From Candidatus Saccharibacteria bacterium RIFCSPHIGHO2_12_FULL_47_16b (GTDB lineage Bacteria; Patescibacteriota; Saccharimonadia; Saccharimonadales; UBA10212): a stretch of DNA of 33,296 nucleotides. The notes under the pieces were generated by a model, which was given only the letters and a program-made list of their open reading frames with translations, did no database searches and had not been told where the DNA came from. The stretch lies in contig MGCU01000005.1 in NCBI GenBank assembly GCA_001790525.1, positions 1-33,296 of the forward strand, read 5' to 3'. This document shows, in pieces, positions 1,873 through 33,139 of the stretch. A program made the position numbers and the translations under genes. The first letter of the stretch is position 1, and each line of letters starts with the position of its first letter.

Positions 1873-4800
1873 TTACATCTCAAACCAGCGACCGCGTTTG
1901 AAAATGCCTGGAGATTGTGATTGGGGCGGACTCAAACCGCTGAAGGTATCTGGTGGAGATACTGGCGGTGGTGTTGTCAGTGGATTTTTGGGACTCGCAT
2001 TGAGTGTTGGATCAGTGATTCCGAATGATGCAATCGTAGAATTTGCTGGCGTCGAAGGCGGCGGACTATAGCCAGGATTAAACAACACCTCCGCTAATTT
2101 ATCAGGTTGTACTGTTGGCGCAGATGGGGCTGCTGGCGTTGGCGCAGGTGGTATAACTTGGGGTTCTGACGGTGCTGGTGCAGCTGGTGGTAGTACTGTG
2201 CCATGCTGGCTGGGTTCCCACTCATCTTTGTTCCAAAAGCCGGCATACTGGGGCGTCGCACTGGGATCTGTAGGATCCATGGCAACATAGGCACCATTGT
2301 CCAACCGATAGATCGCTCTACCTTCGTTACCAGGACGCGTCTCAAGAACGGTCACCCCTGACGGAAGATTCAGTCTGGCAATGACTGGAGCGTCTTGATC
2401 CGGAGTGGCCGTCCATCCAGGGTTTTGATGCCAGGCTGGAGTCGTATTTTCAGCCTGTTGCCTATTCATGGCCGCCTGGATGGCTGGGTCCAGTGTGGAG
2501 ACTGGAGAAATAACATCTTTCGGAACGGCCGGTTCTGCCATGGGGTCGTCGTTTGGATTCCCGGAATATAGCGCCGCCGGATTGGTGACTTCTGGTGCTG
2601 CTGGAGGTACTGGATGGGCTGCGCTATATTCATCCCACTGGTCTTTGTTCCAGGTACCAGCCCCCGACGCTCTAAGTGTACGCGGATCATAAGCCTGATA
2701 TGTACCGTCATTCATCCGAAAGATGGTTTTGCCGTCTTTTCCGGGCCGTTCTTCAAGAACTTTGCTAGCGTCCAAACCAGCTAAGGCAATAGCGTTTTTA
2801 CTTGGGGCGCCCCAGCTAGGGTTGGCGTGCCAAACCGGAAGTTCTTCTTGGGCATTCATGGCCGCTTGAATGGCTGGGTCAAGCTGATCATTGGTGGCTG
2901 ATGTAACTGTAGAAGTGTTAGTTGATGAAGCTTGAGCCTCATTATCTAAGATTTCGGCTGGATCACGCTGATCAGTTACATAATCTACTGGCGGGTAGCT
3001 GTACTTCGGTTGGTTGCCGGTTACTGTTTGGCCAGCGTTAGGGTCTTTGATACTTAGATTGGTAAAGCCGGGCCAGTGTTGGCCGTTATTCTTAGCCGGG
3101 TCCCAAATGACATAGGGATTGCCGTCTTGGCTTTGTTGAATGACGACACCGTTATCTCGAAAGGTTAAAGTGCTATCACGGCCTTTGACGTCAGTAAAGG
3201 AGTAAGTTTTATCGGGATTAGTTTCACCTTGGTAACCGGCTGTTTTGACTTCGTTGAGTGATTTTTCGATGCCGATGCCTTCACCTAAAGGTACCTTGCC
3301 GGTTCGGCGGTCTTGCTGGTCAGGCGTGCCAAACTGTTGCAAGTAACTTGGTGTTTGTGTGTCTACTCGATTTAAAGCAACTATATCCGGCGCCTTGGAG
3401 CGGTAAGCGTTTTCGCCGAGCTTTTGAGTAAAGATGGCACCGTTTTTCAGGTAGGTATTGGTCACGCCGGTGTTGGGGTTATAAGTTACCTTGGCAATCT
3501 CATCCTTGCCGCCTGCCGGAACATAGGCTCCAGGTGTGCCTTGGCGCGGGCCAATATTTGTATGTGAATCAACGCCATCGATAATAACTACCGGCTTCTC
3601 CGAAGTTTTTGGCTGGACTCGCGGCTGCGGACTTGGGCTAGAAATCGTAGGCGTTGAAGTCACAACTGTCGTCGCGTCCTCTCCCCGTTCGTCGCCTTTT
3701 TTAGTCGTTGTTGGTTTAGGCCTCGGCGTAACCCTAGGCTTAGGGTTTGGCGGTGTTGATGTCCCTGGGGTTCCAGAGCCAGGTTTTTGACCAGTGGCCG
3801 GGTGTTGTTTATTCCAGGCTGCCTGGGCTTCGGCTTGGTCGGCTGCTGATAAGGTACTGCCACCAGGACCTACCCACTTCCCATTCACAAAAGTAACTTG
3901 TACTGAAGCCGAGGTTACAGGCACTTGGGTTTTTCCTGGCGCTGGCGGCCCTGCCGCTACTGGCTCATGCCAGGTCTCAAATCTCTGGTATTCGCCTTTG
4001 AAAGGCTTATCGCTCATCCGCCACCATTCACCGTTACCTTTGGAGACCCAGTGTCCGTTAGCTCTATTTGGCGGCTGAATGGTTGTTATTTTGGCTGAAC
4101 CTACCAAGCCTAAGTTGAGCACGGTCGTTTTTGTCTTAACCGGCATTGTAATCGTGACGGTATCACCCCGTCCCGGTCGGGTACTAAGGCTGGTAGTGAC
4201 GGTTGGTTTATTTTTATTTGTCGGCTGCAAAGACGGCGTAACTTTCTTTTCAGGGCTTGGGCCGCCAGCTGTAGAGCGATTCTTCAGCCAGGCTTCAACT
4301 TCTTCCTTTGAGCCGCTGACATATGGCTTGGAACCATCACCACCTTGTTGGATAACTGCGTAGCTGTCTTTATTCTTTCCGGAAGTGATTTGAATTATGC
4401 TAGCTTTTTTAGCCTTATTATCGGATTGACTTTTGAAGCTAAGGTTTTCTTTGACCTTAAAGCTCGGTGAAGGCCCGCCGGTCGATGAGGACGGTGCCGC
4501 TCCATACTGTATGTTATAGATTTTGTTGTTAGCTCCCACCACAACAGTGTCGCCGTTGGCTTTTTTGATTATCTTGGCGTTGATCGTTTTGCCGTCTTCG
4601 GACTTTATGGGAGCACTACCAATAACCGTATCACCTGGCAATTTTCTATAAGCCGGCAATCCAGCTACGATGCTCGCTGTCTTTGTAGCATCTTTGAATT
4701 CCTGCGCCATCTCACCGCCAATAGCCGCAGATACATTTGTTGTCTTACCGTTATTCTTATCATAAAGTTTGTAACCTCCATCTTCAGACTGGTAGAGCAG

Positions 4801-7800
4801 AAGTCCTTTTTCTGTATCAGCCGCAACAAAATGATTTTCAGCCTTGCCTGGTTTTGCTAAAACTCTAGTTTTTCCATCTTTGCTTACATAAAACGTACCT
4901 TCATCAGTCTTCGCTTTTACGCTGTAACCGCTACCAAGCAGTGCTTTAAGGTCATTTTTAGTCAATTCCGATTCATGCGTTATGGTCAAAGATTCACCCT
5001 TATGGCCGCGGCCGGGATAGGTGACTATTTCCATATTCGGCAATTTGGCAATTTTGTTCTGGGCTGAATCACCACCAACCGCTCCAAAAGCTAGAGCTGT
5101 TGCAATGGTAGCTGGCCCTCCACCAACGAGCTTAGTCAAGGCACCAACGGCAGTAAGCGTACCTGCGCCGGCGGCGGCACTGCCGTATTTGCCTTCAACC
5201 AAGTCTTTAACGGTTAGACCGCCTATAAAGCCGACGCCGCCCAAGCCTGCCACGCGGCCGCCTACCTTAAGAACTCTACCTCCTTTATAAACTAACCCTC
5301 CCTTGCTAGTTTCTTTAGCCGCAGCAAAATTGGGTTCACCGTTTCTCTCAATCGGTATGCCTGCAGTCTTCATCTCTTGACGTAATTGGCCTTCCGCTTC
5401 CCAATTACGGACTAGAGGATGCTTGCTGGTTTGCTCTTTCCATTTGGCCTCATACTGTTCAATTGTTTTAATAGAAGGACGCTTGGGTTTAGTCGGGCTT
5501 CCGCTAGCAGGTTCTCTGCCTGCTTCCCCGGCTCCACCTATTCCGGTAGCCCCTGCCCCCGCGGTGGAGCTGCCAACCCTGCCCGACTGGTTGATTCGTT
5601 CGAAATCAGCTTTTAGTTTAGCGTCGATTTCTCTCTGGAGAGGTGTCAAGGCCGGTTTAGATCTTCTGCCGTTGGTCGAGGCTCTAGTTTCATTAGGGGC
5701 CGCTCTAGACATTTCTACATCGGACGCACCCGATCCATTAAGCTCAGCTAGCTTGCCTCTCGCTTTTTCTAAGGCTTTTGTTCTTTCTTCTATATGATTT
5801 TCTGTCTCCGCCAGAATATTCTGTCTTTGTTTTTCGGAAAAACTGCTCCAATAGCCTTTCCCGGCGTGAAAATCAGGATCGTTCAACAACTTTTTACGAT
5901 CAACAATAGCTTTCGCAAGATCGTTTTGTATCTGCGTGACTTTAGCTTTTGTTTCGGAAAGTTGTTGAGTGGATACGCGTTGCTCTAGTACTCCTTGCAA
6001 TCTTAAATTTTTTTCAGAAAAAGCATTTTCTCTAACACTTTCGAGAGTTGCCGTAACATTGTTTTTATAATGGCCCTCAAGATTTTCAAATCCCATCTTT
6101 TTTATAGCTACTTTTTTCATGGATGGGTTAGTTTCACCTTGAAGTACTTCAACAGGCTCGACCAATCCAGCATCTGAAAGGATCACATAATTCTGTATTC
6201 CTCTGATCCCCTTGACGCCAATTTCAGATGCACCTTCAGGGGTAGCTTGCTTTACTTTTTGTAATACTTGCCCGCCCTTTTTGACATCTGGCATAAAATC
6301 AATTTGACCTTTGCCTTCAGAGGCAGCGACCCTGATGCCATTTTTATGATCTGTATAAACTCCACGTCCTGCATTTTTCTTCGCTATAGCAGTCAGTTCG
6401 TCCAAACGTTCAGCTGTAACGGCAATGCCGTTTTTTCTCATGGATGCGGCAATCTTTTGCCGCAAAGCTCTGTCCGTTTTACCGACCTCCGCCTCAGCAG
6501 CAGGAGGTATCTGACGTCGAGCACCGGTCGTACTCGTAGTTGATGAGCCAGTGGCAGTGCCGCTGACAGTAATTCTCGTGCGCGGATTTTCCCCCGCATC
6601 CTTTAGGGCTTCAAGGCGAGCCCTTTCACGAGCCCTTTCTGCTTTCAGCTTCGCACTCTCCGCTTTCTCGGCGGCAAGCTCGTCTTTCAAACCGTCGGCG
6701 CCAGATTTTTCAGACAGAGCGGGGCTAGATGTTGCTTTACTCTTAGCTCCTTGTTCTATGAGTTTATCCCGCTCGGCAATCAAACTATGATATTTAGACA
6801 GACGCCTATATTCGGAGTCGCTCATATTTTCACCTACCGGATTTCTGGAGAAATATTCTGTCTGTTTTCTTAGCTCTTTTTCAACCTGGTTAAATCTTCG
6901 TTGAGCAGCACCAAGCTCAGCAACCCTTTTTTGCGCAGCCGCCAAATCGCCTGCACCATTGGTGCTTGGCAGGGAACCGGTTGTGATGGTTGAGATGCCG
7001 GTGATTCCCCGCTCCATCAGAAGGCGTGTCTGTGCCGGGGTGAAACCGGCTCTGCGCAGAATCAGTCCTTTTTTCATATTTTGCTCTGTCGTGTAGTTAC
7101 CGATACCGGCTGTCGTCCCCGGTTTGGCGCCGGGTTCACCAAAACCTACCGTGTGGGCCTGCTCAACAGCGATCGCCTGTTTTGCGCTTAATGGTATTGG
7201 CTTGCCGCTGGCGTCTTTAGGCAATAGGCCAGATTTGCCCAAGGCGTCCTCGGCCATTCTCCATCTATCAAAAGGATATACTAGCTTGCCGGAGTTTAGT
7301 ATTGACTTGTTAGCTGATGACGGTTTTATATGATCGCTTGTTTGGTACGCCGAGCCGCCCTTAAGAGTAATTGGAACATCGCCGGCGCCCGCCAGCGCCA
7401 TTTTTGGGCTTGTTGGCAGTTGAAACCATTTGGGAATCACCGGCTTCTTTGCAAAGTTCATGCCAGCATCACCATATGCGCTCTTGAACGGTTTGTTGAA
7501 AAGCTTCTTTGACCATTTTTGATAAGCTGTTTCATTGGATACTCCACCGCCGCTTGGATAAGTAACTCCTACCTCCGAGACGTCCGAGCCTGCTACTTTC
7601 ATACCTAAGTTTTCCAATATGCCACCGGTGGTTGCTTCGGTGCTTTTTACCAGCGGCAATGGATGCTCGCGATATGGCCTTACCACCTCTCCAATCGAAG
7701 GGATGTTTGGCCATAATCCGCTTATTTTTTCGCCTAGCGCCCTCTTAAAATCGTTAAGGGTCGAATTGAAACCAAAATCGACCGAAGAATGGGTACCGGT

Positions 7801-8595
7801 AATACGTGCCCCGTTTGCTAATCCTTCCGTTTTCAATTCCCAAGCTTGGTAATAGGTCTTGACTGGTATACTCCGTTGTCTGCTGTTAAAATTTACTTCC
7901 AAACCTGTTTTTACTCTTTTTGACGAAGCCGCCAGCAGATTGACCTCAATTTGGCCGGCGTATTTGGCCGTTGCATCATGGTATAACAACCGCCGGGCTG
8001 CCTCTGACATTTGTTGGCCGCTGATAGTCCAGTCATCTAGCAAAACGACTTTCGCGTTGGCGGGGTCGGCGGTCAGCGCCGAGACATTAGAGACAATCCG
8101 GCCGCTATACTTAGCCCGCTCAGTATCGCTAAAGCTCTCTAATATTTTTTCAAACAGATATTTATCGCTTTTTATTAAACTACTTTGAGAAATTTTAGTG
8201 ACAACGGCTATTTGGTTCTTTGGGTTGGCCTCGAGATGGGTACGCCAATAGTTGGCTATGGCCTTGGCGGCTTCGGCATATTCTTTTTCGCCGATGAAGG
8301 TCAAATTTTTGCGCATTAGAGTGGCTGTTTGAGCGACTTCAGGGTGCTCATGTCCTGCCGCCGCAGCTACGTCCCGCAAATATTTATCGAGCCCTCTTAA
8401 ACCTTGTTGTTCAGTTATTGGCTCGCTGTTTGAGTGTGAGATGAAGGTATTTGTTCTGGATTTATCAGCCACTTGGTCAGCAAAGCGCGGCGGGCGCCTG
8501 ACAAAGCCTTCACTGCCGAACTGTCCACCAGCGTCAGCCTTAGTTTGGAAAGGTATTTTTAATTTTTTTACAGCTATTGCCATAACAACGCCCAC
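1873..8595 (-). CDS. Giant multidomain protein with N-terminal phosphoribosyltransferase-like domain
   Basis: 2240 residues. Residues about 95-320 look like a type I phosphoribosyltransferase fold: AKVVLLDDWTISGQQM at 181-196 fits the PRPP-binding signature (four hydrophobics, two Asp, then a Ser-Gly turn). Long charged coiled-coil segments follow (about 560-720 and 900-1020), then a Gly/Ala-rich hydrophobic region that may insert into a membrane, then a C-terminal half of short beta, W-rich and Pro/Thr-rich repeats, including two tandem 130-residue units just before the end. There is no signal peptide, so the cellular location is unknown. The GTG start overlaps the TAG of the preceding BtpA-like gene (TAGTG) and has a GAGG five bases upstream; ATG 8583 is the alternative but lies farther from this site. 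The PRTase call is from motif and context only. The substrate is unknown. Effector, surface or scaffold roles are all possible. Confidence 0.8.
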   Translation of the reverse strand: MGVVMAIAVKKLKIPFQTKADAGGQFGSEGFVRRPPRFADQVADKSRTNTFISHSNSEPITEQQGLRGLDKYLRDVAAAAGHEHPEVAQTATLMRKNLTFIGEKEYAEAAKAIANYWRTHLEANPKNQIAVVTKISQSSLIKSDKYLFEKILESFSDTERAKYSGRIVSNVSALTADPANAKVVLLDDWTISGQQMSEAARRLLYHDATAKYAGQIEVNLLAASSKRVKTGLEVNFNSRQRSIPVKTYYQAWELKTEGLANGARITGTHSSVDFGFNSTLNDFKRALGEKISGLWPNIPSIGEVVRPYREHPLPLVKSTEATTGGILENLGMKVAGSDVSEVGVTYPSGGGVSNETAYQKWSKKLFNKPFKSAYGDAGMNFAKKPVIPKWFQLPTSPKMALAGAGDVPITLKGGSAYQTSDHIKPSSANKSILNSGKLVYPFDRWRMAEDALGKSGLLPKDASGKPIPLSAKQAIAVEQAHTVGFGEPGAKPGTTAGIGNYTTEQNMKKGLILRRAGFTPAQTRLLMERGITGISTITTGSLPSTNGAGDLAAAQKRVAELGAAQRRFNQVEKELRKQTEYFSRNPVGENMSDSEYRRLSKYHSLIAERDKLIEQGAKSKATSSPALSEKSGADGLKDELAAEKAESAKLKAERARERARLEALKDAGENPRTRITVSGTATGSSTTSTTGARRQIPPAAEAEVGKTDRALRQKIAASMRKNGIAVTAERLDELTAIAKKNAGRGVYTDHKNGIRVAASEGKGQIDFMPDVKKGGQVLQKVKQATPEGASEIGVKGIRGIQNYVILSDAGLVEPVEVLQGETNPSMKKVAIKKMGFENLEGHYKNNVTATLESVRENAFSEKNLRLQGVLEQRVSTQQLSETKAKVTQIQNDLAKAIVDRKKLLNDPDFHAGKGYWSSFSEKQRQNILAETENHIEERTKALEKARGKLAELNGSGASDVEMSRAAPNETRASTNGRRSKPALTPLQREIDAKLKADFERINQSGRVGSSTAGAGATGIGGAGEAGREPASGSPTKPKRPSIKTIEQYEAKWKEQTSKHPLVRNWEAEGQLRQEMKTAGIPIERNGEPNFAAAKETSKGGLVYKGGRVLKVGGRVAGLGGVGFIGGLTVKDLVEGKYGSAAAGAGTLTAVGALTKLVGGGPATIATALAFGAVGGDSAQNKIAKLPNMEIVTYPGRGHKGESLTITHESELTKNDLKALLGSGYSVKAKTDEGTFYVSKDGKTRVLAKPGKAENHFVAADTEKGLLLYQSEDGGYKLYDKNNGKTTNVSAAIGGEMAQEFKDATKTASIVAGLPAYRKLPGDTVIGSAPIKSEDGKTINAKIIKKANGDTVVVGANNKIYNIQYGAAPSSSTGGPSPSFKVKENLSFKSQSDNKAKKASIIQITSGKNKDSYAVIQQGGDGSKPYVSGSKEEVEAWLKNRSTAGGPSPEKKVTPSLQPTNKNKPTVTTSLSTRPGRGDTVTITMPVKTKTTVLNLGLVGSAKITTIQPPNRANGHWVSKGNGEWWRMSDKPFKGEYQRFETWHEPVAAGPPAPGKTQVPVTSASVQVTFVNGKWVGPGGSTLSAADQAEAQAAWNKQHPATGQKPGSGTPGTSTPPNPKPRVTPRPKPTTTKKGDERGEDATTVVTSTPTISSPSPQPRVQPKTSEKPVVIIDGVDSHTNIGPRQGTPGAYVPAGGKDEIAKVTYNPNTGVTNTYLKNGAIFTQKLGENAYRSKAPDIVALNRVDTQTPSYLQQFGTPDQQDRRTGKVPLGEGIGIEKSLNEVKTAGYQGETNPDKTYSFTDVKGRDSTLTFRDNGVVIQQSQDGNPYVIWDPAKNNGQHWPGFTNLSIKDPNAGQTVTGNQPKYSYPPVDYVTDQRDPAEILDNEAQASSTNTSTVTSATNDQLDPAIQAAMNAQEELPVWHANPSWGAPSKNAIALAGLDASKVLEERPGKDGKTIFRMNDGTYQAYDPRTLRASGAGTWNKDQWDEYSAAHPVPPAAPEVTNPAALYSGNPNDDPMAEPAVPKDVISPVSTLDPAIQAAMNRQQAENTTPAWHQNPGWTATPDQDAPVIARLNLPSGVTVLETRPGNEGRAIYRLDNGAYVAMDPTDPSATPQYAGFWNKDEWEPSQHGTVLPPAAPAPSEPQVIPPAPTPAAPSAPTVQPDKLAEVLFNPGYSPPPSTPANSTIASFGITDPTLNASPKNPLTTPPPVSPPDTFSGLSPPQSQSPGIFKRGRWFEM
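2104..2883 (-). repeat. Two tandem 130-residue repeat units in the giant protein
   Basis: Two in-frame units begin with the same peptide LDPAIQAAMN, at 2883 and 2493, exactly 390 nt apart. Each continues with W-H-x-N-P-x-W, then VLExRPGxxG, an I-x-R-x-x-x-G-x-Y strand, a DP turn, a W-N-K-D-x-W motif and a PPAAP linker. The DNA copies have diverged well beyond the protein pattern, so this is an old internal duplication and not an assembly artefact. Confidence 0.85.
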
Positions 8596-14203: not shown

Positions 14204-15247
14204 TTATTGGCCGCACTGCTTAGTACAGTATTTGGCTACGGCGGCCTGATGTTCTTCCAGCGTGCGCGAAAAATGTACCGTACCGTCATCGCCAGCCACA
14301 AAGTATAAATAATCGGTACTGGCCGGATAGGCCACGGCTTTGAGGGCATCGGCTGTAAAATTACTGATTGGACCCGGCGACAAACCCTCGTGAAGATAAC
14401 TATTGTAGGCCGAATCAAAGTTTAGGTCGCGGGCTACACCGGCAATGTCGGCACCATAGTGGGCCGAGGCGTCGGACTCTAGACGCATATTGGCTCGCAA
14501 GCGAGATAAGAAGACTTGAGCCACGCCTGATTCGAACTTAGGATTATCAGTTTCTCTATAAACTATCGAGGCTAGAATGATGCCCTGATAAACGCTTAGT
14601 CCTTGGGCGCTAAAGCCGGCAATAATATCGCTGGTTAGATTTTGGCTAAGCAGTTCAAGTGATTGTTTGACGATTGCCGTGGCTGGTGTCTTGGCATCTT
14701 TTTGGAAGGAATCCGGGTATAAATAACCCTCCAGGTTTGCGCCGGCCGGCAGAGAGCTTAAGGTTGGTAGGCCACCGTAAGATTGTGGATTAAAAGCCGA
14801 GTTGATCTCGGCCGCAGAATAACCGGCTGTCGCAAAAGCCTCTTTTATCTGGTCCAGCCGTTTGCCAGGCAAAATCGTCAGCAGATTTTTGGCAATATCG
14901 CCGCGGACAATCTTGCCAACGATTTCTTTGACACTCATCGACTGGCTTAGTGAATAAGTGCCGGCCTGCAAATCTTTATAAAGCTCGTTGGTCCGGACGT
15001 AATACTCGAAAGCCGAGGGCGAGCGGATTAAACCGGCTCGCTTTAGACCAGTGGCTATTTGGTGAAGATTGTCGCCGGGTTCAATCGTGAAGTAGCTTGT
15101 CCTTTGCGAGATTGAAACCGGGCTCAAATTATGCTGGTACCACCAGCGCAGTCCAGCCACCCCGCCAACTAACAAGAGGGCCGAGGCTATGCCAATAATC
15201 AAGCCGATTTTGGAGCGTCGCAATAGCGGTTTTGACAACCAACCCAT
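14204..15247 (-). CDS. mltG: Endolytic murein transglycosylase MltG (YceG family)
   Basis: 347 residues. There is a basic N-terminus, one membrane helix (about 13-33), a LysM-like segment (FTIEPGDNLHQIATGL), then the YceG catalytic domain with EGYLYPDSF, ASIVYRETDNP and the VFLSRLRANMRLESDAS block, ending with the family's YLYFVAGDDGTVHFSRTLEEH. MltG cleaves nascent glycan strands and sets their length. The second Glu of the usual EKET motif, the catalytic one by comparison with E. coli E218, is kept as E232; the first is Tyr here, which is unusual. Its ATG lies 29 nt after the ruvX stop, in one leftward operon with ruvX and the baseplate-J-like gene. Confidence 0.95.
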   Translation of the reverse strand: MGWLSKPLLRRSKIGLIIGIASALLLVGGVAGLRWWYQHNLSPVSISQRTSYFTIEPGDNLHQIATGLKRAGLIRSPSAFEYYVRTNELYKDLQAGTYSLSQSMSVKEIVGKIVRGDIAKNLLTILPGKRLDQIKEAFATAGYSAAEINSAFNPQSYGGLPTLSSLPAGANLEGYLYPDSFQKDAKTPATAIVKQSLELLSQNLTSDIIAGFSAQGLSVYQGIILASIVYRETDNPKFESGVAQVFLSRLRANMRLESDASAHYGADIAGVARDLNFDSAYNSYLHEGLSPGPISNFTADALKAVAYPASTDYLYFVAGDDGTVHFSRTLEEHQAAVAKYCTKQCGQ

Positions 15248-15276
15248 AGACTAGCAGAGTAACTTTTTTCGCCTAA

Positions 15277-15690
15277 TCATGCAACTTGACGCCTTCTGTC
15301 TGACTGATCGAGCCAGTCCTGCAAAATTAGGGCGGCAGCCACGGCGTGCTCGTCAACATGCTTTGAAGATTCGAGCTTCTTACTTCTAGCTTCTAGACTA
15401 GTCAGAGCTTCGTCTTGAAGATAGAATTTTACTTCTGGAATGATAGCCTTGGCCGATTTTATCCACTGACGCAACCACCTAGTTTGAGCCGTATCGCCGC
15501 CGGCCAAATTTCGCGGCAGGCCAACAACTATCTGGCTAGTTCCCTGATTGGCTAGCTTCTTTAATCTCGAAGTAAGCTGGTCGGTTGGGATGGTAGTTAA
15601 CGGTTCGGCTAGCTTAGCCATGCTTGAGGCTCGGGCCAGTCCGGTCCGGACTTGGCCCACATCCAGACCGATGATCTCACCAGCAGACAT
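15277..15690 (-). CDS. ruvX: RuvX/YqgF-type pre-16S rRNA nuclease
   Basis: 137 residues, the usual length. It has the RNase H-like fold motifs IIGLDVGQVRTGLA (catalytic D10), IVVGLPRNLAGG, a DEALTSLEA segment in place of the usual DERLTT-x-EA, and VDEHAVAAALILQDWLD at the C-terminus with the last acidic residue. The family processes the 5' end of 16S rRNA and was first described as a Holliday-junction resolvase homologue. Its ATG shares one base with the stop of the upstream 564-aa gene (TAATG), so translation is coupled. Confidence 0.93.
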   Translation of the reverse strand: MSAGEIIGLDVGQVRTGLARASSMAKLAEPLTTIPTDQLTSRLKKLANQGTSQIVVGLPRNLAGGDTAQTRWLRQWIKSAKAIIPEVKFYLQDEALTSLEARSKKLESSKHVDEHAVAAALILQDWLDQSDRRRQVA

Positions 15691-17384
15691 TACTCTTTGA
15701 CCTGCTCCAGTGTCACCGTAATCCTAGCCGGCTTATTGGGCGCCTTACTCACCCAAAATGGACTCATATTAACATCAACGTCCTTGACGCCGGGCAACTG
15801 TCCAACAAAGTTACGAATATCACCTTTCTTTAAGCCGCCGGCCTGGCGCTTGATTGCCTCGGTATCAATGTTCGGCGTAGCCGAGGCTTCGACGGTGATA
15901 TTTAAAGTCATATTAGTCGGTGAAGTCTGGTTCTGGACGCTAGCAGTCAGGTTTTTAAGCAAGTCTTTATCTAGTATCTGCTGTTTGGCTTTGTCAATTT
16001 GTTTTTCGAGCCGATCTGAAACAATTTGCTTAAGATCGTCCTTTTTGAGTGCCACAATCGAGTAAGTAATCTTGATGTTAACAGTGACTGTAGTGGCTGG
16101 CTGGCCGACTTCCGGTGTGGCAGTAGTCACTGGTTCGGCAATCTTAAGAGTTGAGGTAATGACGTAAAAGCCTTCTTCGTCTAATTTTTTCTGGAAGTTT
16201 TTGCTAAAGTCATCAGAACTTTGGGTAGTAATTTTGCTTTTGGCACCGTCAATATCGCTTTGCTGAACAATAGTGACAACACTGTCGGTCCCGCCACTAA
16301 AGGCCGCGGCGTTAGAAGCTGAAACATTCGAATAGCCTGAAACAGCGAAAGTTTGACCAGCGCCGACGTTATATTTAGCGCCCGGCGTTTGGGCGACGAC
16401 GTCGACATCAGCCGTATTGGCGCCGGTTGAAGGACACGGCGCCGGCAGAGCACCTAACGATTTAGCCGCTTGAGTAATGTAAACTAGACCGCCAGTTGAC
16501 ACAGCCGTACCAGCCGGTACGGTCACCACCGAGGTGCCACAATTTTTTAGGGTGACGGGGCCTGAAGCTTTTTCGCCTTTATTTTGCTGGCCAGTGGCTG
16601 GGACTTGTTGGGTTGAGGTTTGGTCGGAAGTTTTAAGAACTGCCGGAACGATACTTTTTTCCGAGTCGACAGCCTTGGCACTATCGGCAGTCGTGAGATC
16701 GAAATTGGCGCTCACCGGCGTTGAAGTTGTCTGAATGGTAATAGCGGCTTTGGGTAAAACTTTGGTTGCCAAAAATAGAAAAACAATTAGTCCGATTATA
16801 CCGGCGATGATAAGTACTAGCCGCAGGCGGAACTTGTCGAAGTTGGGAATTTTTAACTTCTTGTCTTTGACTGTCGGTTTTTTAAGCGGGTCTTTAGTAG
16901 CATCGGTTGATTCTGCTTCATCAGCTTCGGCGGCCAGACTGATAGTCTCTGGTTCTTCTACTTCTTCGGCTACGGCAATCTCGCCTCTAGCACGATGATC
17001 ATCAAGCGTAGCTTTTTCTTCGCTTAGCTGTTCGGCTTCATCGGCCACAGCGGTTTGACCTCTGACCGGAACTGGCGAAGCCGGAATGTAGGGTTTGCTC
17101 TGTAAATTCTTAGCCACATAAACGCTAGCCGCCCCAGCTAGAGGCAGAATCTTCTGGTCGTTGGTGATAAGTACGATTTTTTTACCAGCATCATCGGCGC
17201 CCCTTTTTAAGAGCCGCATGTTTACAATGCTCTGTAGAGCCGAAGATTTTTTGGGCAGTACCAGCGCGGCAAGTTTGGCGTCAGCTGCCTCAACTTTATC
17301 GATAATTGAAGTTATTTCATCTTCAACGTCAATGTAGATTGTGGCTTTGGTCGGTGGGTTGGTTTTGGACTTCTCAACCATCAT
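15690..17384 (-). CDS. Single-pass membrane protein with baseplate J-like extracellular region
   Basis: 564 residues. A cytoplasmic alpha/beta domain (1-100, starting KATIYIDVEDEITSIIDKV and including KKIVLITNDQKILPLA) is followed by an acidic linker, a membrane helix at 188-208 (RLRLVLIIAGIIGLIVFLFL) and a long exported beta region. That region includes VTLKNCGTSVVTVPAGTAV and a C-terminal ferredoxin-like part, of the kind annotated 'baseplate J/gp47' in CPR genomes. It lies next to the FtsA/PilM-like ATPase, and the pair may form an envelope-spanning assembly analogous to PilM with PilN/PilO. That role is inferred from position. A GGGAG lies just before the tandem ATGATG start. Confidence 0.8.
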   Translation of the reverse strand: MMVEKSKTNPPTKATIYIDVEDEITSIIDKVEAADAKLAALVLPKKSSALQSIVNMRLLKRGADDAGKKIVLITNDQKILPLAGAASVYVAKNLQSKPYIPASPVPVRGQTAVADEAEQLSEEKATLDDHRARGEIAVAEEVEEPETISLAAEADEAESTDATKDPLKKPTVKDKKLKIPNFDKFRLRLVLIIAGIIGLIVFLFLATKVLPKAAITIQTTSTPVSANFDLTTADSAKAVDSEKSIVPAVLKTSDQTSTQQVPATGQQNKGEKASGPVTLKNCGTSVVTVPAGTAVSTGGLVYITQAAKSLGALPAPCPSTGANTADVDVVAQTPGAKYNVGAGQTFAVSGYSNVSASNAAAFSGGTDSVVTIVQQSDIDGAKSKITTQSSDDFSKNFQKKLDEEGFYVITSTLKIAEPVTTATPEVGQPATTVTVNIKITYSIVALKKDDLKQIVSDRLEKQIDKAKQQILDKDLLKNLTASVQNQTSPTNMTLNITVEASATPNIDTEAIKRQAGGLKKGDIRNFVGQLPGVKDVDVNMSPFWVSKAPNKPARITVTLEQVKE

Positions 17385-17424
17385 ACGCTCCCATCGGTTG
17401 CTCCAACTATCAATTCACAATTAT

Positions 17425-17492
17425 CCCCACACCAAAAACTTGAAGCTCCATAATCTGATTGCAGACTACTCCGCTCAGGTTTTGGTGCGGGG
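17425..17492. repeat. Long-arm inverted repeat in an intergenic gap
   Basis: CCCCACACCAAAAAC (17425-17439) and GTTTTGGTGCGGGG (17479-17492) are inverted copies with one substitution and one extra base, separated by 39 nt. They could form a hairpin in the transcript between the FtsA-like and baseplate-J-like genes. There is no T-tract, so it is not a classical terminator. The rest of the 211-nt gap is A/T-rich and shows no convincing gene. Confidence 0.5.
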
Positions 17493-17595
17493 CAAGCAAT
17501 GCTCAATGAATTATCAATTAGCAATTTGCAAGTATTAGCTGTAGTTTGTTTGATAAATGACAAATGAGAAATTAATGGTAAATGGAATGATGGAG

Positions 17596-18900
17596 TCATA
17601 CCTTTAGCACCTTATCGAATCTTTGTTTCAAACTGGCAGATTCCGGCGCGCCGCCAGAACTTAAGGTATCCATTCCCACCCGCAGTAAGCCCATGGCGGT
17701 AATGTAGGTATGGTCGTTGATATCGCCGGTGGTGTCGCTAATGCCAACCACATCCTCTGGCAGGATGTGCTGGACGCTGGGTTTTTTGGTAAACGGCAGG
17801 GCTTTATACCAGTCGCCTTGGGATAATTGCTGCATTAGCATTTCCAGGCTGGAGCCGCCGCCGCATAGCAACAGCCGGTTGGGCAAATGATCGAGCTTAT
17901 CAAATTCAGCCAAGGCCAACTCCACGCCGCTGCCCCAAACTTTGAGAGTTTTAGCTAGAGCCTGTTCGATTTTTGGTCGTTGTTCGGCCGCCACGGCGCC
18001 GGCGCCTAAACCAACTTTTAAGGCTTCGGCTGTCGGAAAATCAATATCCAACTCTCGGCTGATGGCATGAGTAAAAGCCCGGCCGCCAATGCCAAACATC
18101 TTGGTACCTTCGACGCCGCCTTCGTTGACCACGGCAATATCGGTGGTACCGCCGCCGACGTCCATCAATACTGCACTAACTTGGGCATTCGGATCATCGC
18201 CGACTACCGAGCGGGCTACGGCGAATGGTTCGGCCGCCACGGCCAGTAGTTCCAAGTCCAGTTCATTAGCCACACGCTCTAAAGCACCGATGTGAATCAT
18301 CGGCGCAAAGGCGGTGTACATTTCTACTTCCAGATCACGGCCTTGAAAGCCAACCGGATTGGTGACCTTGTAGCCATCGATATCAATACTAACTAGGGCG
18401 CTATTAACCAATCGTACATCAACATCTTTGCCGCCGAGTTCCCAGCTTAGCGTTTCACGGGCCTTAGCCTCGGCTCGCTGCTGGACTAACTCAATGATTC
18501 GCTGAACTTCTTCAATAGTCAGCTCGTTAGTGGCCGTTTGGCGAGTAAATCTAACAGTGGTGGTAGTACCTTTAACCAGTTCGCCGGCGATGCCAATGAT
18601 GGCGGTCCGGGCATTGGTGATTTCGGCCTGTTGTTCGGCGTCAGCTAGGGCTTTATCGCAGTTAGCGACTACGGCGGCGATGTCAGAAATAGCCCCGGCT
18701 TGCATATCAGATAGTTCCTGATGCGATCGTCCAACGCCGATAATCTCCACTTCGTTGCCAACAATTCGGCCGATTAAAGCCTTAACAAATTCCGTACCGA
18801 CATCTAGCGCGACAATATATTGACCGATCGGTTTTCCCTTTTTTGGCTTTTTGGAAACTCCCGAAAATTTGTTTTTTAGGGCTTTGGCTTTTTCGAGCAT
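17596..18900 (-). CDS. FtsA/PilM-like actin-fold ATPase
   Basis: 434 residues. It has the actin-fold phosphate motifs IVALDVGTEFVKALIG (about 29-44) and VSAVLMDVGGGTTDIAVV, an adenosine motif LLLCGGGSSLEML, and an SHS2-type insert between the first two. A basic N-terminal extension (KNKFSGVSKKPKKGK) precedes the fold. FtsA and PilM are cytoplasmic ATPases that organise membrane machinery: the divisome, or type IV pilus assembly. No ftsZ or pil genes are nearby, so which of the two applies cannot be decided; the downstream membrane protein favours a PilM-like partnership. TGCTATAAT lies 11 nt before the ATG, giving a leader of about four bases. Confidence 0.88.
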   Translation of the reverse strand: MLEKAKALKNKFSGVSKKPKKGKPIGQYIVALDVGTEFVKALIGRIVGNEVEIIGVGRSHQELSDMQAGAISDIAAVVANCDKALADAEQQAEITNARTAIIGIAGELVKGTTTTVRFTRQTATNELTIEEVQRIIELVQQRAEAKARETLSWELGGKDVDVRLVNSALVSIDIDGYKVTNPVGFQGRDLEVEMYTAFAPMIHIGALERVANELDLELLAVAAEPFAVARSVVGDDPNAQVSAVLMDVGGGTTDIAVVNEGGVEGTKMFGIGGRAFTHAISRELDIDFPTAEALKVGLGAGAVAAEQRPKIEQALAKTLKVWGSGVELALAEFDKLDHLPNRLLLCGGGSSLEMLMQQLSQGDWYKALPFTKKPSVQHILPEDVVGISDTTGDINDHTYITAMGLLRVGMDTLSSGGAPESASLKQRFDKVLKV

Positions 18901-23123: not shown

Positions 23124-23381
23124 TCAGATGTCAAGAAAGACGGTGATTTTGTCTTGTTTGACATGCAGGACGCCGCGGGAAATTGGCAAAACAAATTCCA
23201 AATTGTCCAGCTTACGTACGCGGATATTGCAAGGCCGCAGTAACGACATAAAGTTCTTATGTTTAGGCAAAACATCAAACGGGCCGGTATCATTGACCGC
23301 TGAAAAAGTTAGAGCCACGTTATCGAAATAGACTCTTGAGGGCGAGTAAATTTTGACCCAGATTGTATTTTTGGGCTTCAT
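23124..23381 (-). CDS. atpC: F1-like ATPase epsilon subunit, N-terminal domain only
   Basis: 85 residues. It matches the beta-sandwich of F1 epsilon: VKIYSPSRVYFDNVALTFSAVNDTGPFDVLPKHKNFMSLL corresponds to the GxFDVLPxHxNFxSLL region, and ISRGVLHVKQDKITVFL to the GVLxVxxNxVxVF strand. Ordinary epsilon has about 130-140 residues with two C-terminal inhibitory helices. Here the stop comes directly after the sandwich, so those helices, and the self-inhibition they give, are missing. It follows the beta gene by 2 nt and is the last gene of the cluster. Confidence 0.88.
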   Translation of the reverse strand: MKPKNTIWVKIYSPSRVYFDNVALTFSAVNDTGPFDVLPKHKNFMSLLRPCNIRVRKLDNLEFVLPISRGVLHVKQDKITVFLDI

Positions 23382-23383
23382 TT

Positions 23384-25542
<2,159 letters not shown>

Positions 25543-25672: not shown

Positions 25673-27100
25673 TCACGACGTGCCTCCGGCTAGCTGGCTT
25701 TTAAGTTGGGCTAGGGCTTGGGGGTACTTGTCGGCCGAGCTGATAGTTTTTCCGACTTCGGTCGCCACCCGTTTTAACAGCCCGACATCGAGATTATCCG
25801 GTGCATCATCAGCCAAGATGACATCGAGCATTAATTGCTGGGCGGCCAAGGGGTATGTCTCGCCGGGGACCTGGGTAAAAATCTGACTAAGCTGGTTCCC
25901 TTTTATAAGAACCTTGTGGGTTGAGGTGCTCATTTCTGTGCCAAAATGGGCATACTCTTTAGCCCGATTGTATTCTGTTAGGGTTTTAAAAACTTGAGCA
26001 TTTTGGGCCTTTTGCCGTTCGTTCTGGCCAACACCACCAACCCGAGTTACGCTTAAACCAACCGAAATGGCCGGCCGCAGTCCTGCTCGAAAAACGTTCA
26101 TATCCAGAATCCACTGACCGTCAGTAATCGACATCACATTGGTTGGCAGATAGGTTGAAATATCGCCGCCTTCGGTTAAAACTAGCGGCACGGCTGTCAA
26201 ACATTTATGGCTGGCGGCTAACTTACCGGCTCTTTCTAAAAGAGCCGAGTGGGCATGAAAGATATCGCCGGGGTAAGAATCGCGACCCGGGCTAACACCA
26301 GATAGTAGAGCGATTTCCCGATAAGCGAAAGCGTGGGTACTTAAATCGTCATAAAAAATCACCACGTCCTGATCAAGTGTTTGCCAAAGATACTCGGCCA
26401 GCGCACAACCAACATAAGGTGCTAGGTAACTATTGACCAATGATTCAAAAATGGTTGAGACCACCACAATTGATTTTTTCATGACGCCGGAGTCATTAAG
26501 ACGGGTCAGCAGTAAGTCAATGTCGCTGCGGCGTTTGGTTATCATTACATAAACAACAATCTGATCAGTCTTAAGCTGGTTAATGGCAATCTGTGTCGCC
26601 ATGGTGGTTTTGCCAGATTTACTATCGCCAAGTAAAGCTAGGCGCTGGCCACGAACAATCGGGAACAGCGTGTCGATGATTGTCACGCCGGTTTCCAGTT
26701 GGGTAGATAGTAACTCTCTTTGGTATATCGGCGGCGCACCATTAAAAATCGGCCAGTTAGCATCAGCTGCAATTGGCCCCTTGCCATCCAGCGGTTCGCC
26801 GGTGACCGATATGACTCGGCCAACAAAATCCTTGCCGACTTTGGCCAGTAGATCCTCCTGCTGGACAACCGCCAAAGTGCCGACTCGCAGTTTTGAATTA
26901 TTAAGTCGAAGAACTAATAGCCGATCCTCCAGAATATGATGCACGAAGCCCTGGCTACCATCTTCAAAAATTACCAGGGCGTGGGTATTGACCGGTTGCA
27001 TACCGCGGATTTGTACCAAAAAATTATTAATGGCAATTACTTCGCCGACCGGTCTGCCCTCATCAACAAAGCTTTGAAAGTGTTTATTGGCTTCCGCCAC
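25673..27100 (-). CDS. atpA: F1-like ATPase alpha subunit
   Basis: 475 residues, somewhat short for alpha (about 500-510). The nucleotide-binding motif is GDSKSGKT (158-165) in place of the usual GDRQTGKT, with Walker B VVIFYDDLSTHAFAYREIALL. Arginine finger R353 is in GLSVTRVGG, and PGRDSYPGDIFHAHSALLERA matches the conserved alpha signature. The active-site contribution of the arginine suggests a working alpha/beta interface. It overlaps the delta gene by 17 nt. Confidence 0.95.
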   Translation of the reverse strand: MAEANKHFQSFVDEGRPVGEVIAINNFLVQIRGMQPVNTHALVIFEDGSQGFVHHILEDRLLVLRLNNSKLRVGTLAVVQQEDLLAKVGKDFVGRVISVTGEPLDGKGPIAADANWPIFNGAPPIYQRELLSTQLETGVTIIDTLFPIVRGQRLALLGDSKSGKTTMATQIAINQLKTDQIVVYVMITKRRSDIDLLLTRLNDSGVMKKSIVVVSTIFESLVNSYLAPYVGCALAEYLWQTLDQDVVIFYDDLSTHAFAYREIALLSGVSPGRDSYPGDIFHAHSALLERAGKLAASHKCLTAVPLVLTEGGDISTYLPTNVMSITDGQWILDMNVFRAGLRPAISVGLSVTRVGGVGQNERQKAQNAQVFKTLTEYNRAKEYAHFGTEMSTSTHKVLIKGNQLSQIFTQVPGETYPLAAQQLMLDVILADDAPDNLDVGLLKRVATEVGKTISSADKYPQALAQLKSQLAGGTS

Positions 27101-27587
27101 GACTGACTGCTCCTTTTATCAGTTCGACTAAGTAAGCTTTTTCCTTGTCCAGGTGCGCCCGCAAGCTCATGTCAAAAACTTTATTTGGCGTGCGCAAAAC
27201 ACAGCCAGCGGCGATGCTCGGTTGCAGACCAACTTGGACTAAAGCGTGCTGATGGATGTTTTCACGCAGCCATGCCAAGATGCGTTCCAAAAATTTTGAT
27301 GGCGGTTCGGCGGCAAAACTAATTTGTATGGTAGGTGCGGATCCCTTCAACTTATCCAGCTGTTGGGCTAGGCTCTGGCGGTGATTTGCTTGCAGTAAGT
27401 TCAGTTGATTTTCCTTAGAAATCTCATCGAGTAGCCGCGTTAGGCGCGGCGGGGTAACTGGCGTGCCGGCCGCTCTGGCTTTAGCGGCGATAAAAAATTC
27501 ATCAACCGCCGCTAGTTCCCGGCTCAAACGGATAATGTCCGACTGCGAAACAACACCTAAAGGCAGCCTAAATTCCAGCTTTGACAT
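27084..27587 (-). CDS. atpH: F1-like ATPase delta subunit (peripheral-stalk cap)
   Basis: 167 residues from ATG 27587. An ORF can be extended to 27683, but that start lies deep inside the b-like gene and the added residues look non-coding. The C-terminal part VQVGLQPSIAAGCVLRTPNKVFDMSLRAHLDK matches the delta/OSCP ending (VDPSLIGGVxVRxGDKVxDxSVRxxL). The N-terminal half is helical, as in delta. It links the top of the alpha3beta3 ring to the b-like stalk. It overlaps the b-like gene by 20 nt and atpA by 17 nt, so the three are translated together. Confidence 0.82.
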   Translation of the reverse strand: MSKLEFRLPLGVVSQSDIIRLSRELAAVDEFFIAAKARAAGTPVTPPRLTRLLDEISKENQLNLLQANHRQSLAQQLDKLKGSAPTIQISFAAEPPSKFLERILAWLRENIHQHALVQVGLQPSIAAGCVLRTPNKVFDMSLRAHLDKEKAYLVELIKGAVSRGGSQ

Positions 27588-28215
27588 CTTCAAAAATGGC
27601 TTTTTTATTATTTTCCAGCTCGGCCAAGATGTACTCGAGTTGATCGGATAGATCAATTTGATTACCGATGGCTCGCAGAACATAGTGGTTTATAATCGAG
27701 GCCATTTCCTGCTCAAAGCGCTCAATAATCCTGGTCTTTTGGGCTTCGGCTTGAGCCTGCAATTGGGTCTCCAAAAAATGGCGTTGTTGTTCAATGGTAG
27801 TGACGGTTTTTTCAATCGAGTCCAGCGCTAGTTGTTTAGCATCAGAGATTGATTGCTGATATTTTTTGAACTCTTCTTGAAGTGTCCGGGTGATTTCGGT
27901 ACGCATGTAATCATTGAGTTGGGTGGTAGTCTCACGCAAGTCTTGCTGTAAGAACATGGCGTTTTCGCCGATGACCTTTTCAAAATGGAGCCGGCCGCGG
28001 TTACGCAGCTCTTCCCGAAACTCATCATTAAATATATGATCGACTTCTTCTTGTGCCCGCTCCAGCAAGGTGGAGCGGCTGACCGGCGGTATCTGGCTAG
28101 CGGCAATTTTGGCTTTCTTACGACTTTTCCGGTACGGTTGCCACACCAGCCAAGTAAAGACCAGCGTGGCGCTGATGATTAAACCGATTATGATTATTAA
28201 CCCACCGCTACTCAT
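27568..28215 (-). CDS. atpF: F-type ATPase b-like peripheral stalk protein
   Basis: 215 residues, longer than ordinary b (about 155-170). One N-terminal membrane helix (GGLIIIIGLIISATLVFTWLVW) is followed by a basic patch and about 170 residues of charged coiled coil, the layout of subunit b. It sits between the c-like membrane protein and delta, where b is normally encoded. Its presence with delta implies that F1 is held still relative to the membrane while gamma turns. The ATG follows the stop of the upstream gene after 3 nt, without a separate ribosome site. Confidence 0.78.
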   Translation of the reverse strand: MSSGGLIIIIGLIISATLVFTWLVWQPYRKSRKKAKIAASQIPPVSRSTLLERAQEEVDHIFNDEFREELRNRGRLHFEKVIGENAMFLQQDLRETTTQLNDYMRTEITRTLQEEFKKYQQSISDAKQLALDSIEKTVTTIEQQRHFLETQLQAQAEAQKTRIIERFEQEMASIINHYVLRAIGNQIDLSDQLEYILAELENNKKAIFEDVKAGI

Positions 28216-28218
28216 GAT

Positions 28219-28995
28219 TTAGATTTTTAATAATAAAAAGATGCCGCCCAGTCCGCCAATAAAGACCAGCCCGGCCGCCACGATTACTTGGGTTAAGCTT
28301 TGCATAATTGAGTGTTTGCTCAAAGGATTGCGACCAATCGAAATCAGACTGGTACGGACTCCAACCAAAATCAAGCTGGCCGCCACAATCAGCGTTATAA
28401 CGAAAATAGCCAGCGCGCTGTAGATGCGGGCAGCCGAGACCGGCTTGCCGGCAATGGCGTAGGCTAGTCTTAACAAAGGACCAGGTACGGCTTTATCGCC
28501 TTTAATTTGCGGGTTTTTGCCGGGGTTAAGTTCGGCTTTAATCTTGCCGGTCGCAGCATTATTAAAATCATCGAGGGCCTTACCAACAACATATTCTTGG
28601 TTAATGGAAGCTTTGCCGGCAACGCCGTCGGTTTTAGACATCGATAAGTAATCGCCCGATTTAATCGATCCGTTGCTGGCGCTAACTAAGATTGGGTAGG
28701 CGCCCGAGGTTGCCACAAAGACCGTCTGGTCTTGCTTTTGCAAGGTAACAGCCGCTTCGGTTTGCTCGATGACGACGCCGTATATTCTATTTACATCCGC
28801 GGCTGGTGCTGGCTCAACACTTTCCGGGTCGTCTTTTGTAAGAGCCACGACCGTGCCCGGCTCAATTTTAGTTTTGGCACCAAAGCTTTTGGCGATAGTT
28901 TGCCCATAAACCAGTCCGGCCGGAATAAGCAATATTGACGCGACCATTAGTACTTTAAGGAGTCTGCCCATAAGAAATTTAGGGATGAACTTCAT
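28219..28995 (-). CDS. Membrane protein with exported domain and c-subunit-like hairpin lacking the ion-binding carboxylate
   Basis: 258 residues. A membrane segment or signal anchor (about 9-30) is followed by an exported beta-rich domain (about 45-145), with NGSIKSGDYLSMSKTDG and YVVGKALDDF as in tail-fibre or peptidase-G2-like surface modules. A C-terminal hairpin of two helices follows (about 189-213 and 231-256) around the loop RTSLISIGRNPLSKHSI. In F-type c subunits the same cytoplasmic loop carries R-Q/N-P, and the essential Asp/Glu lies 20 residues after that Arg (E. coli R41 and D61). Here the Arg is R222 and position 242 is Gly; the whole second helix has no acidic residue. The predicted topology puts R-N-P in the cytoplasm, as in c. 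It is the first gene of the F1-like cluster, with TATACT 10 nt before the ATG. The c homology is inferred from motif, topology and position, not from a search. Confidence 0.75.
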   Translation of the reverse strand: MKFIPKFLMGRLLKVLMVASILLIPAGLVYGQTIAKSFGAKTKIEPGTVVALTKDDPESVEPAPAADVNRIYGVVIEQTEAAVTLQKQDQTVFVATSGAYPILVSASNGSIKSGDYLSMSKTDGVAGKASINQEYVVGKALDDFNNAATGKIKAELNPGKNPQIKGDKAVPGPLLRLAYAIAGKPVSAARIYSALAIFVITLIVAASLILVGVRTSLISIGRNPLSKHSIMQSLTQVIVAAGLVFIGGLGGIFLLLKI

Positions 28996-32704: not shown

Positions 32705-33139
32705 TTATTGGACAGTGATTGTGCCGGTTTCGGACGAATTGAGATGATTATGGTAACCGAACGTACCCGTTTTAGTGAGGGTGAAGGTGGCAGTTTTGCC
32801 GGCTTGGATTACACCAACATTAAGCTCGTCATTATCGGTGTGAACGGGGTGAGGATTGGACTGGACTTGAATAGCGTCATCTGAATTGTTTTTAATCGAT
32901 ACGCTGTCACCTGATTTAACCGTCAACGAACTTGGGGTAAAACTGCTATTAGCATAAGTAATAGCGCTGGCTGATTGTGGTGTCTGGGTCTCGGATGTAT
33001 TGGTGGCAGTTTCCGGCTGTTTGTTTGTAGTGCTAGTAGTCGAAGTCTGGTTATTATCAGATTTGTTGTTGATGATTATGAATCCGCCAATTACTAAAGC
33101 GGCCGCCACCAGCCCAGTTATAATAACGCCTGTTTTCAT
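32705..33139 (-). CDS. Membrane-anchored cupredoxin-like protein
   Basis: 144 residues. An N-terminal membrane anchor (about 4-23) is followed by a Thr/Ser/Asn-rich linker to about 57 and a single cupredoxin beta-sandwich with SSFTPSSLTVKSGDSVSIKN and a closing GTFGYHNHLNSSETGTITV. The copper-site Cys and Met of blue-copper proteins are absent: the loop has H130 and H132, with H97 and H100 upstream. It may bind copper or another metal through His, or serve structurally. A strong GGAGG four bases before the ATG and a TATAAT at 33162-33167 (minus) mark it as the first gene of its own transcript, the only operon-leading gene here with a classical leader. Confidence 0.85.
   Translation of the reverse strand: MKTGVIITGLVAAALVIGGFIIINNKSDNNQTSTTSTTNKQPETATNTSETQTPQSASAITYANSSFTPSSLTVKSGDSVSIKNNSDDAIQVQSNPHPVHTDNDELNVGVIQAGKTATFTLTKTGTFGYHNHLNSSETGTITVQ

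Follow-up and report, generated by a model that had tools for sequence, protein, structure and literature searches.

In mycoplasmas, the Type 2 and Type 3 ATPases power gliding or the MIB-MIP system (PMC11864180, PMC12994834). Type 2 is the G1 ATPase of gliding, and Type 3 is the F1-like-X0 ATPase of MIB-MIP (PMC3369863, PMC11864180, PMC12994834). Protein 5 of these systems has been reported to be non-homologous to any F0 subunit, and GliD has been proposed to derive from b and delta (PMC3369863, PMC11864180, PMC12994834).

The window, a stretch of 33,296 nucleotides from Candidatus Saccharibacteria bacterium RIFCSPHIGHO2_12_FULL_47_16b, contains an F1-like operon headed by a membrane protein, here called X. 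Of the known systems, the mycoplasma Type 2/3 F1-like-X0 ATPases come closest to it in design. In both cases, an additional seven-gene F1-like cluster stands beside a normal F1Fo in a reduced genome, F0 subunit a is missing, and there is a link to surface proteins. X and protein 5 also share a topology: a signal peptide, an exported part, and two uncharged transmembrane (TM) helices at the C-terminus. The mycoplasma clusters differ by adding a 12-TM protein, and sequence comparison gives them no homologue of b or delta, whereas the Patescibacterial system retains delta and has a membrane protein traceable to subunit c. Neither the window operon nor the intervals separating core genes in the mapped operons contain a gene for the 12-TM protein 1. 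Because delta is present, the 12-TM protein is absent, and the membrane subunit is traceable to c, X-F1 is classed apart from the mycoplasma X0. Judged from sequence, it would be an F1-like ATPase turned from ions to mechanics, neither a mycoplasma X0 nor an ATP synthase.

One frequent version of the Patescibacterial "ATP synthase" genes cannot be an ATP synthase, having neither subunit a nor an ion site. The puzzle of such genes in non-respiring cells thus splits into two separately deletable complexes. X-F1 is a second case, after the mycoplasmas, of an F1 motor apparently used at the cell surface, and X is a rare natural candidate for a c-ring that would perform mechanical work independently of ions. 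No account of the X-F1 operon in Patescibacteria was found in the literature searched (open-licence papers, no preprints).

The operon and its first protein

The operon reads X-b-delta-alpha-gamma-beta-epsilon, with X first and the genes closely spaced (Table 1). The plus strand at the X gene is interrupted by many stops; the open reading frame lies on the minus strand. Subunit a (PF00119) was not found in this operon. Contig C18 of the same genome carries a complete canonical operon, a-c-b-delta-alpha-gamma-beta-epsilon.

Table 1. Features of X and its operon in the window
Feature	Positions	Strand	Basis or remark
X, c-subunit homologue lacking the acid, with an exported domain	28219..28995	-	258 aa, ATG start; ORF, PDB profile, Foldseek, AF2
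X residues 1-31, signal peptide, probably cleaved (VYG-Q)	28903..28995	-	hydropathy and A-x-A-like sites of relatives
X residues 34-160, exported beta domain like phage cement/decoration proteins	28516..28896	-	Foldseek, BFVD, PF23982
X residues 188-222, TM1 of c-like hairpin	28330..28434	-	AF2, Foldseek, hydropathy
R222-N223-P224 loop, expected cytoplasmic	28324..28332	-	RNP invariant in all aligned X
X residues 224-257, TM2 without acidic residue	28225..28326	-	G242 codon 28270-28272, at R+20
b-like peripheral stalk candidate, one TM and long helix	27568..28215	-	position; AF2 helices H3-38, H64-184
delta/OSCP subunit	27084..27683	-	PF00213 E 1e-4; PDB OSCP E 1.1e-9
alpha-like subunit, P-loop and arginine finger (SVTRVGG)	25673..27100	-	PF00006 8e-65; motifs
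gamma-like subunit	24691..25542	-	PF00231 7e-25
beta-like subunit, catalytic motifs intact	23384..24694	-	PF00006 6e-63; motifs
epsilon-like subunit, beta-sandwich only	23124..23381	-	PF02823 4.6e-12; PDB epsilon E 3.6e-11 over first ~85 residues

The F1 set of alpha, beta, gamma, delta, and epsilon is present with its catalytic residues: beta keeps the P-loop, GER, and DNMYR, and alpha keeps the arginine finger. These five subunits are assigned by homology, and b by position and shape. The b-like protein gave no significant sequence match, and a Foldseek search with its model found no fold match; the AF2 model has one TM helix followed by a 121-residue helix. Delta overlaps the b-like gene, and its true start probably falls within that overlap. 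In epsilon, the rotor-binding sandwich is kept and the C-terminal helices, inhibitory in other bacteria, are missing. In X-linked epsilons (alignment A10), an invariant G-x-F-D-x-L-x-x-H-x-x-F replaces the usual GELGILPGHAPL loop, a change that is possibly paired with that of the c loop from RNPE to RNPL.

X has three hydrophobic stretches, at about residues 6-30, 185-221, and 229-258. An AF2 model built on a 46-sequence alignment (mean pLDDT 92) joins the two C-terminal helices at the RNP turn and places a beta domain at residues ~34-160, in agreement with the exported beta domain proposed in an earlier sequence-only reading of this DNA. That reading had also numbered the loop as R222-N223-P224, with G242 at R+20, the position of E. 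coli D61, and had described an acid-free helix. The numbering is correct, and residues 188-257 contain no Asp or Glu, so both helices of the hairpin are acid-free. The N-terminal membrane segment that it proposed exists as a hydrophobic stretch but looks like a cleavable signal peptide, because the corresponding segments of relatives end in A-x-A-like sites (AHASA-D, IHARA-E, LTAFA-Q). GRNP is invariant across the 46 aligned X proteins, R-N-P is invariant in more distant ones, and nearly all rows of the alignments are without indels between the ends of the hairpin. The hairpin pattern is therefore far from chance.

Exported domain, giant surface proteins, and a proposed mechanism

The exported domain of X resembles in fold the cement and decoration proteins of phages and the barrels of preneck appendages. 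Foldseek matches include Pam3 (8hdt_G, 2.5e-5), BB1 (8pkh, 6e-5), and Sf11 (9ocb); the match to a preneck appendage in BFVD reaches 9e-11, and PF23982 is found in 18 of the 46 family members (best 3.9e-6). In X, unlike in the phage proteins, the domain is joined to a c-like hairpin and forms part of a bacterial membrane protein.

The same domain is found again inside giant open reading frames of 780-4700 aa, only in genomes with X-F1. Outside the operon there are 15 X genes, and every one of them precedes, on the same strand, the gene of a giant type-II surface protein (at L051, one small gene separates the two). These giants have a cytoplasmic N-terminus, one TM segment, and a long beta region, and several are cut at contig or locus ends. 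In six genomes (G016, G022, G033, G055, G056, G058), the operon is without X and the sole full X is in the giant locus. In distant classes, the operons likewise have giants as neighbours (L163, L166, L168, L170, L173). Gene neighbourhood and co-occurrence thus suggest a link between X and the giants.

A T4SS/VirB reading of this second context of X, made from gene lengths, was dropped because the neighbours of ~960-980, ~102, and ~87 aa read by eye as IleRS, L21, and a thioredoxin-like protein, and because the constant partner of X there is the giant surface protein. The giants of L163, L166, L168, L169, L170, and L161 open with a cytoplasmic MerR-type HTH before the TM segment (PF00376 1e-13 for the L163 giant at 14579-18001). 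A CxxC zinc-ribbon-like stretch stands at the start of X itself at L066 and of the giant at L114. Downstream of epsilon, and usually convergent, a bactofilin-like single-TM protein of ~330 aa is encoded in 30 of 48 genomes with the alpha2 operon and in 0 of 13 others; examples of this solenoid protein (alignment A6) are L037:12612-13613, L042:1113-2096, and nine more. The window is without it, and MnmA directly follows epsilon.

The reading that we favour, and consider reasonably likely, is an ATP-hydrolysing motor on a c-derived rotor that carries no ions and works on surface fibres. Alpha3-beta3-gamma-epsilon would hydrolyse ATP, and delta with the b-like protein would form the peripheral stalk. 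X would stand in for subunits a and c, its RNP loop still receiving the foot of gamma and epsilon and its phage-cement-like domain sitting on the outer face. No ion would move through X because the carboxylate is gone. Several X hairpins may form a ring, which ATP hydrolysis would turn against the stalk. The external domains could then transmit torque or a change of conformation to long surface fibres, among them perhaps the giants encoded beside X paralogues. The ring, its rotation, and its function at the surface are drawn from homology and genomic context. Rather than producing energy, X-F1 probably spends ATP on the movement of surface structures. Its probable role is mechanical work at the cell surface, such as host attachment, fibre movement, or gliding, and neither ATP synthesis nor ion pumping. 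The broader proposal is more tentative, a real possibility rather than a probability: that ATP-driven rotary surface motors occur across the Patescibacteria, in which an ion-less c-ring with an extracellular crown turns giant fibres, and that these account for part of the annotated "ATP synthase" genes.

The same giant loci and operon neighbourhood would fit a static arrangement, in which X is a c-derived anchor or bearing that docks an F1-like ATPase near surface proteins with no continuous rotation of a crown. We regard this as unlikely though worth serious attention, and the same holds for its second part, in which ATP hydrolysis would export the giants, assemble them, or cycle them between conformations. 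Without subunit a, there is no obvious way of fixing the stator in the membrane, and the mycoplasma Type 3 ATPase has been proposed to act on MIB/MIP by conformational change (PMC12994834). However, the invariant RNP loop, the ungapped c-like spacing, and the retained OSCP stalk look like a preserved rotor and stator, and the giants have N-terminal TM anchors of their own.

The lost ion site

The rotary reading takes X to be free of ions, and the earlier statement that a ring of X cannot carry protons or sodium is supported across the family and by X-F1 genomes without subunit a. R+20 is not the sole acid position, since the acid of local canonical c subunits lies anywhere from R+18 to R+20, and the acid scan of TM2 therefore covered R+15 to R+30. 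Over this span, an acid is absent from 87 of 89 distinct X hairpins; canonical c subunits have one in 23 of 23, always at R+18 to R+20. The two exceptions, G010 and G013 (L036, L009), are two species of one genus with an Asp at R+19, which is the acid position in half of the local canonical c subunits.

These two Asp residues are one of the points in favour of an ordinary ion pump, in which X would pair in trans with the canonical subunit a, or in which the ion site would have moved elsewhere. The other is a Glu in TM1 at R-17 in seven giant-linked X. Such a pump is highly improbable, and for the window X, acid-free in both helices, it is nearly refuted; nearly all other X are without a TM2 acid as well. 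Subunit a is also missing from many genomes with X. The X-hairpin profile matches 68 of 380 sampled Patescibacteria genomes, a count that takes in unchecked weak matches in long open reading frames, and subunit a is present in 40 of the 68 and absent from 28. Four relatives in the order with the operon (G039, G040, G048, G059) have X and alpha2 and neither subunit a nor a canonical c above the cut-off; the weak c match of G039 is an X paralogue. Given that X-F1 has neither subunit a nor the carboxylate, it is very unlikely to make ATP or to pump ions.

The seven paralogues with Glu at R-17 (L063, L064, L065, L067, L115, L116, L120) have an acid-free TM2 core, and the window X does not have this Glu. 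We take R-17 to be the position of Ala24 in E. coli c. An E. coli c mutant with the carboxylate moved to that position is reportedly functional, and these paralogues resemble a natural counterpart of it.

Descent from c subunits and distribution

The proposal that the hairpin of X is homologous to F-type c subunits is supported by family profiles. A 28-row profile of X hairpins, run against 177,635 PDB sequences, gave ATP synthase c subunits as all ten of its best matches (best E 1.2e-5, up to 71 ungapped columns), which places the hairpin with the family that the sequence-only reading had named. A PDB search with hairpins of the order only had returned one weak chance match; the wider set succeeded. 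With hhalign, three sets of X matched 23 canonical Saccharibacterial c subunits at 4.6e-5, 2.4e-6, and 7.6e-6, the aligned parts being centred on the GRNP loop. The Pfam c profile (PF00137) matches one X paralogue over positions 2-60 (E 0.0075) and one distant X (E 0.019), both below the Pfam cut-off. Single X sequences, the window X included, stay under that cut-off, and the significance comes from the family profiles.

Structure agrees with this. Among the 50 Foldseek matches listed for the model, those to the hairpin are c subunits, of the Chloroflexus, bovine, Mycobacterium, yeast, and Polytomella enzymes, fitting at 1.1-1.6 A with TMt 0.81-0.88; 9itt_I gives TMt 0.88, 1.1 A, and probability 1.00. 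Since two helices hold little information, the E-values of these matches are weak (0.18 or higher). X thus shares with PF00137 proteins the two-helix hairpin, the RNP loop, and a gene position ahead of b-delta-alpha-gamma-beta-epsilon. It differs from them in its missing ion-binding carboxylate, its signal peptide and ~130-residue exported domain, and an operon without subunit a.

An origin apart from c would make X the membrane hairpin of a surface-fibre base, with GRNP arisen by chance and a place beside F1 genes for historical reasons. The window X by itself has no Pfam match even at E 10, and 12 of 63 residues are identical to the c subunit of its own genome, both points in favour of such an origin. 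The PDB and Foldseek matches to c subunits speak against it, as do the co-occurrence with alpha2 and the phylum-wide conservation of the operon described below. This origin is disfavoured, and we give it very little credence.

Of the 61 genomes compared (own, genus, family, and order), 48 have the alpha2 operon, and the 46 genomes with X are all among these. A profile search found X in 0 of the 13 genomes without alpha2 (p = 1.6e-11, kinship ignored). The two alpha2-positive exceptions, G045 (100% complete; L105) and G052 (L106), have the F1-like operon, and no X hairpin was found in either genome. The order X-b-delta-alpha-gamma-beta-epsilon is conserved within the order. As had been predicted for CPR genomes, the neighbourhood with b, delta, and alpha recurs across the phylum: X adjoins an F1-like operon with divergent b and delta in 18 of 20 distant loci, the exceptions being both loci of G399. 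A tblastn search of plasmids gave no match. In a tree of alpha subunits, those of X operons are separate from 20 canonical ones, and no single origin is resolved; the tree is poorly rooted, with some beta sequences filed as alpha, and was left out of dating.

That the operon is a decaying duplicate without function, as its lost ion site and shortened beta and epsilon C-termini might suggest, is scarcely credible, since the catalytic motifs are kept, the operon is conserved across the whole phylum, and it is retained where the canonical enzyme was lost.

In family f114 (L160, L164, L165), the F1-like operon lies between two X genes, and three extra genes separate one X from b. The window also has a giant open reading frame of 2240 aa with no assigned function, at 1873-8595 on the minus strand, and encodes an exported cupredoxin-like protein (PF13473 2e-8) at 32705-33139, likewise on the minus strand.
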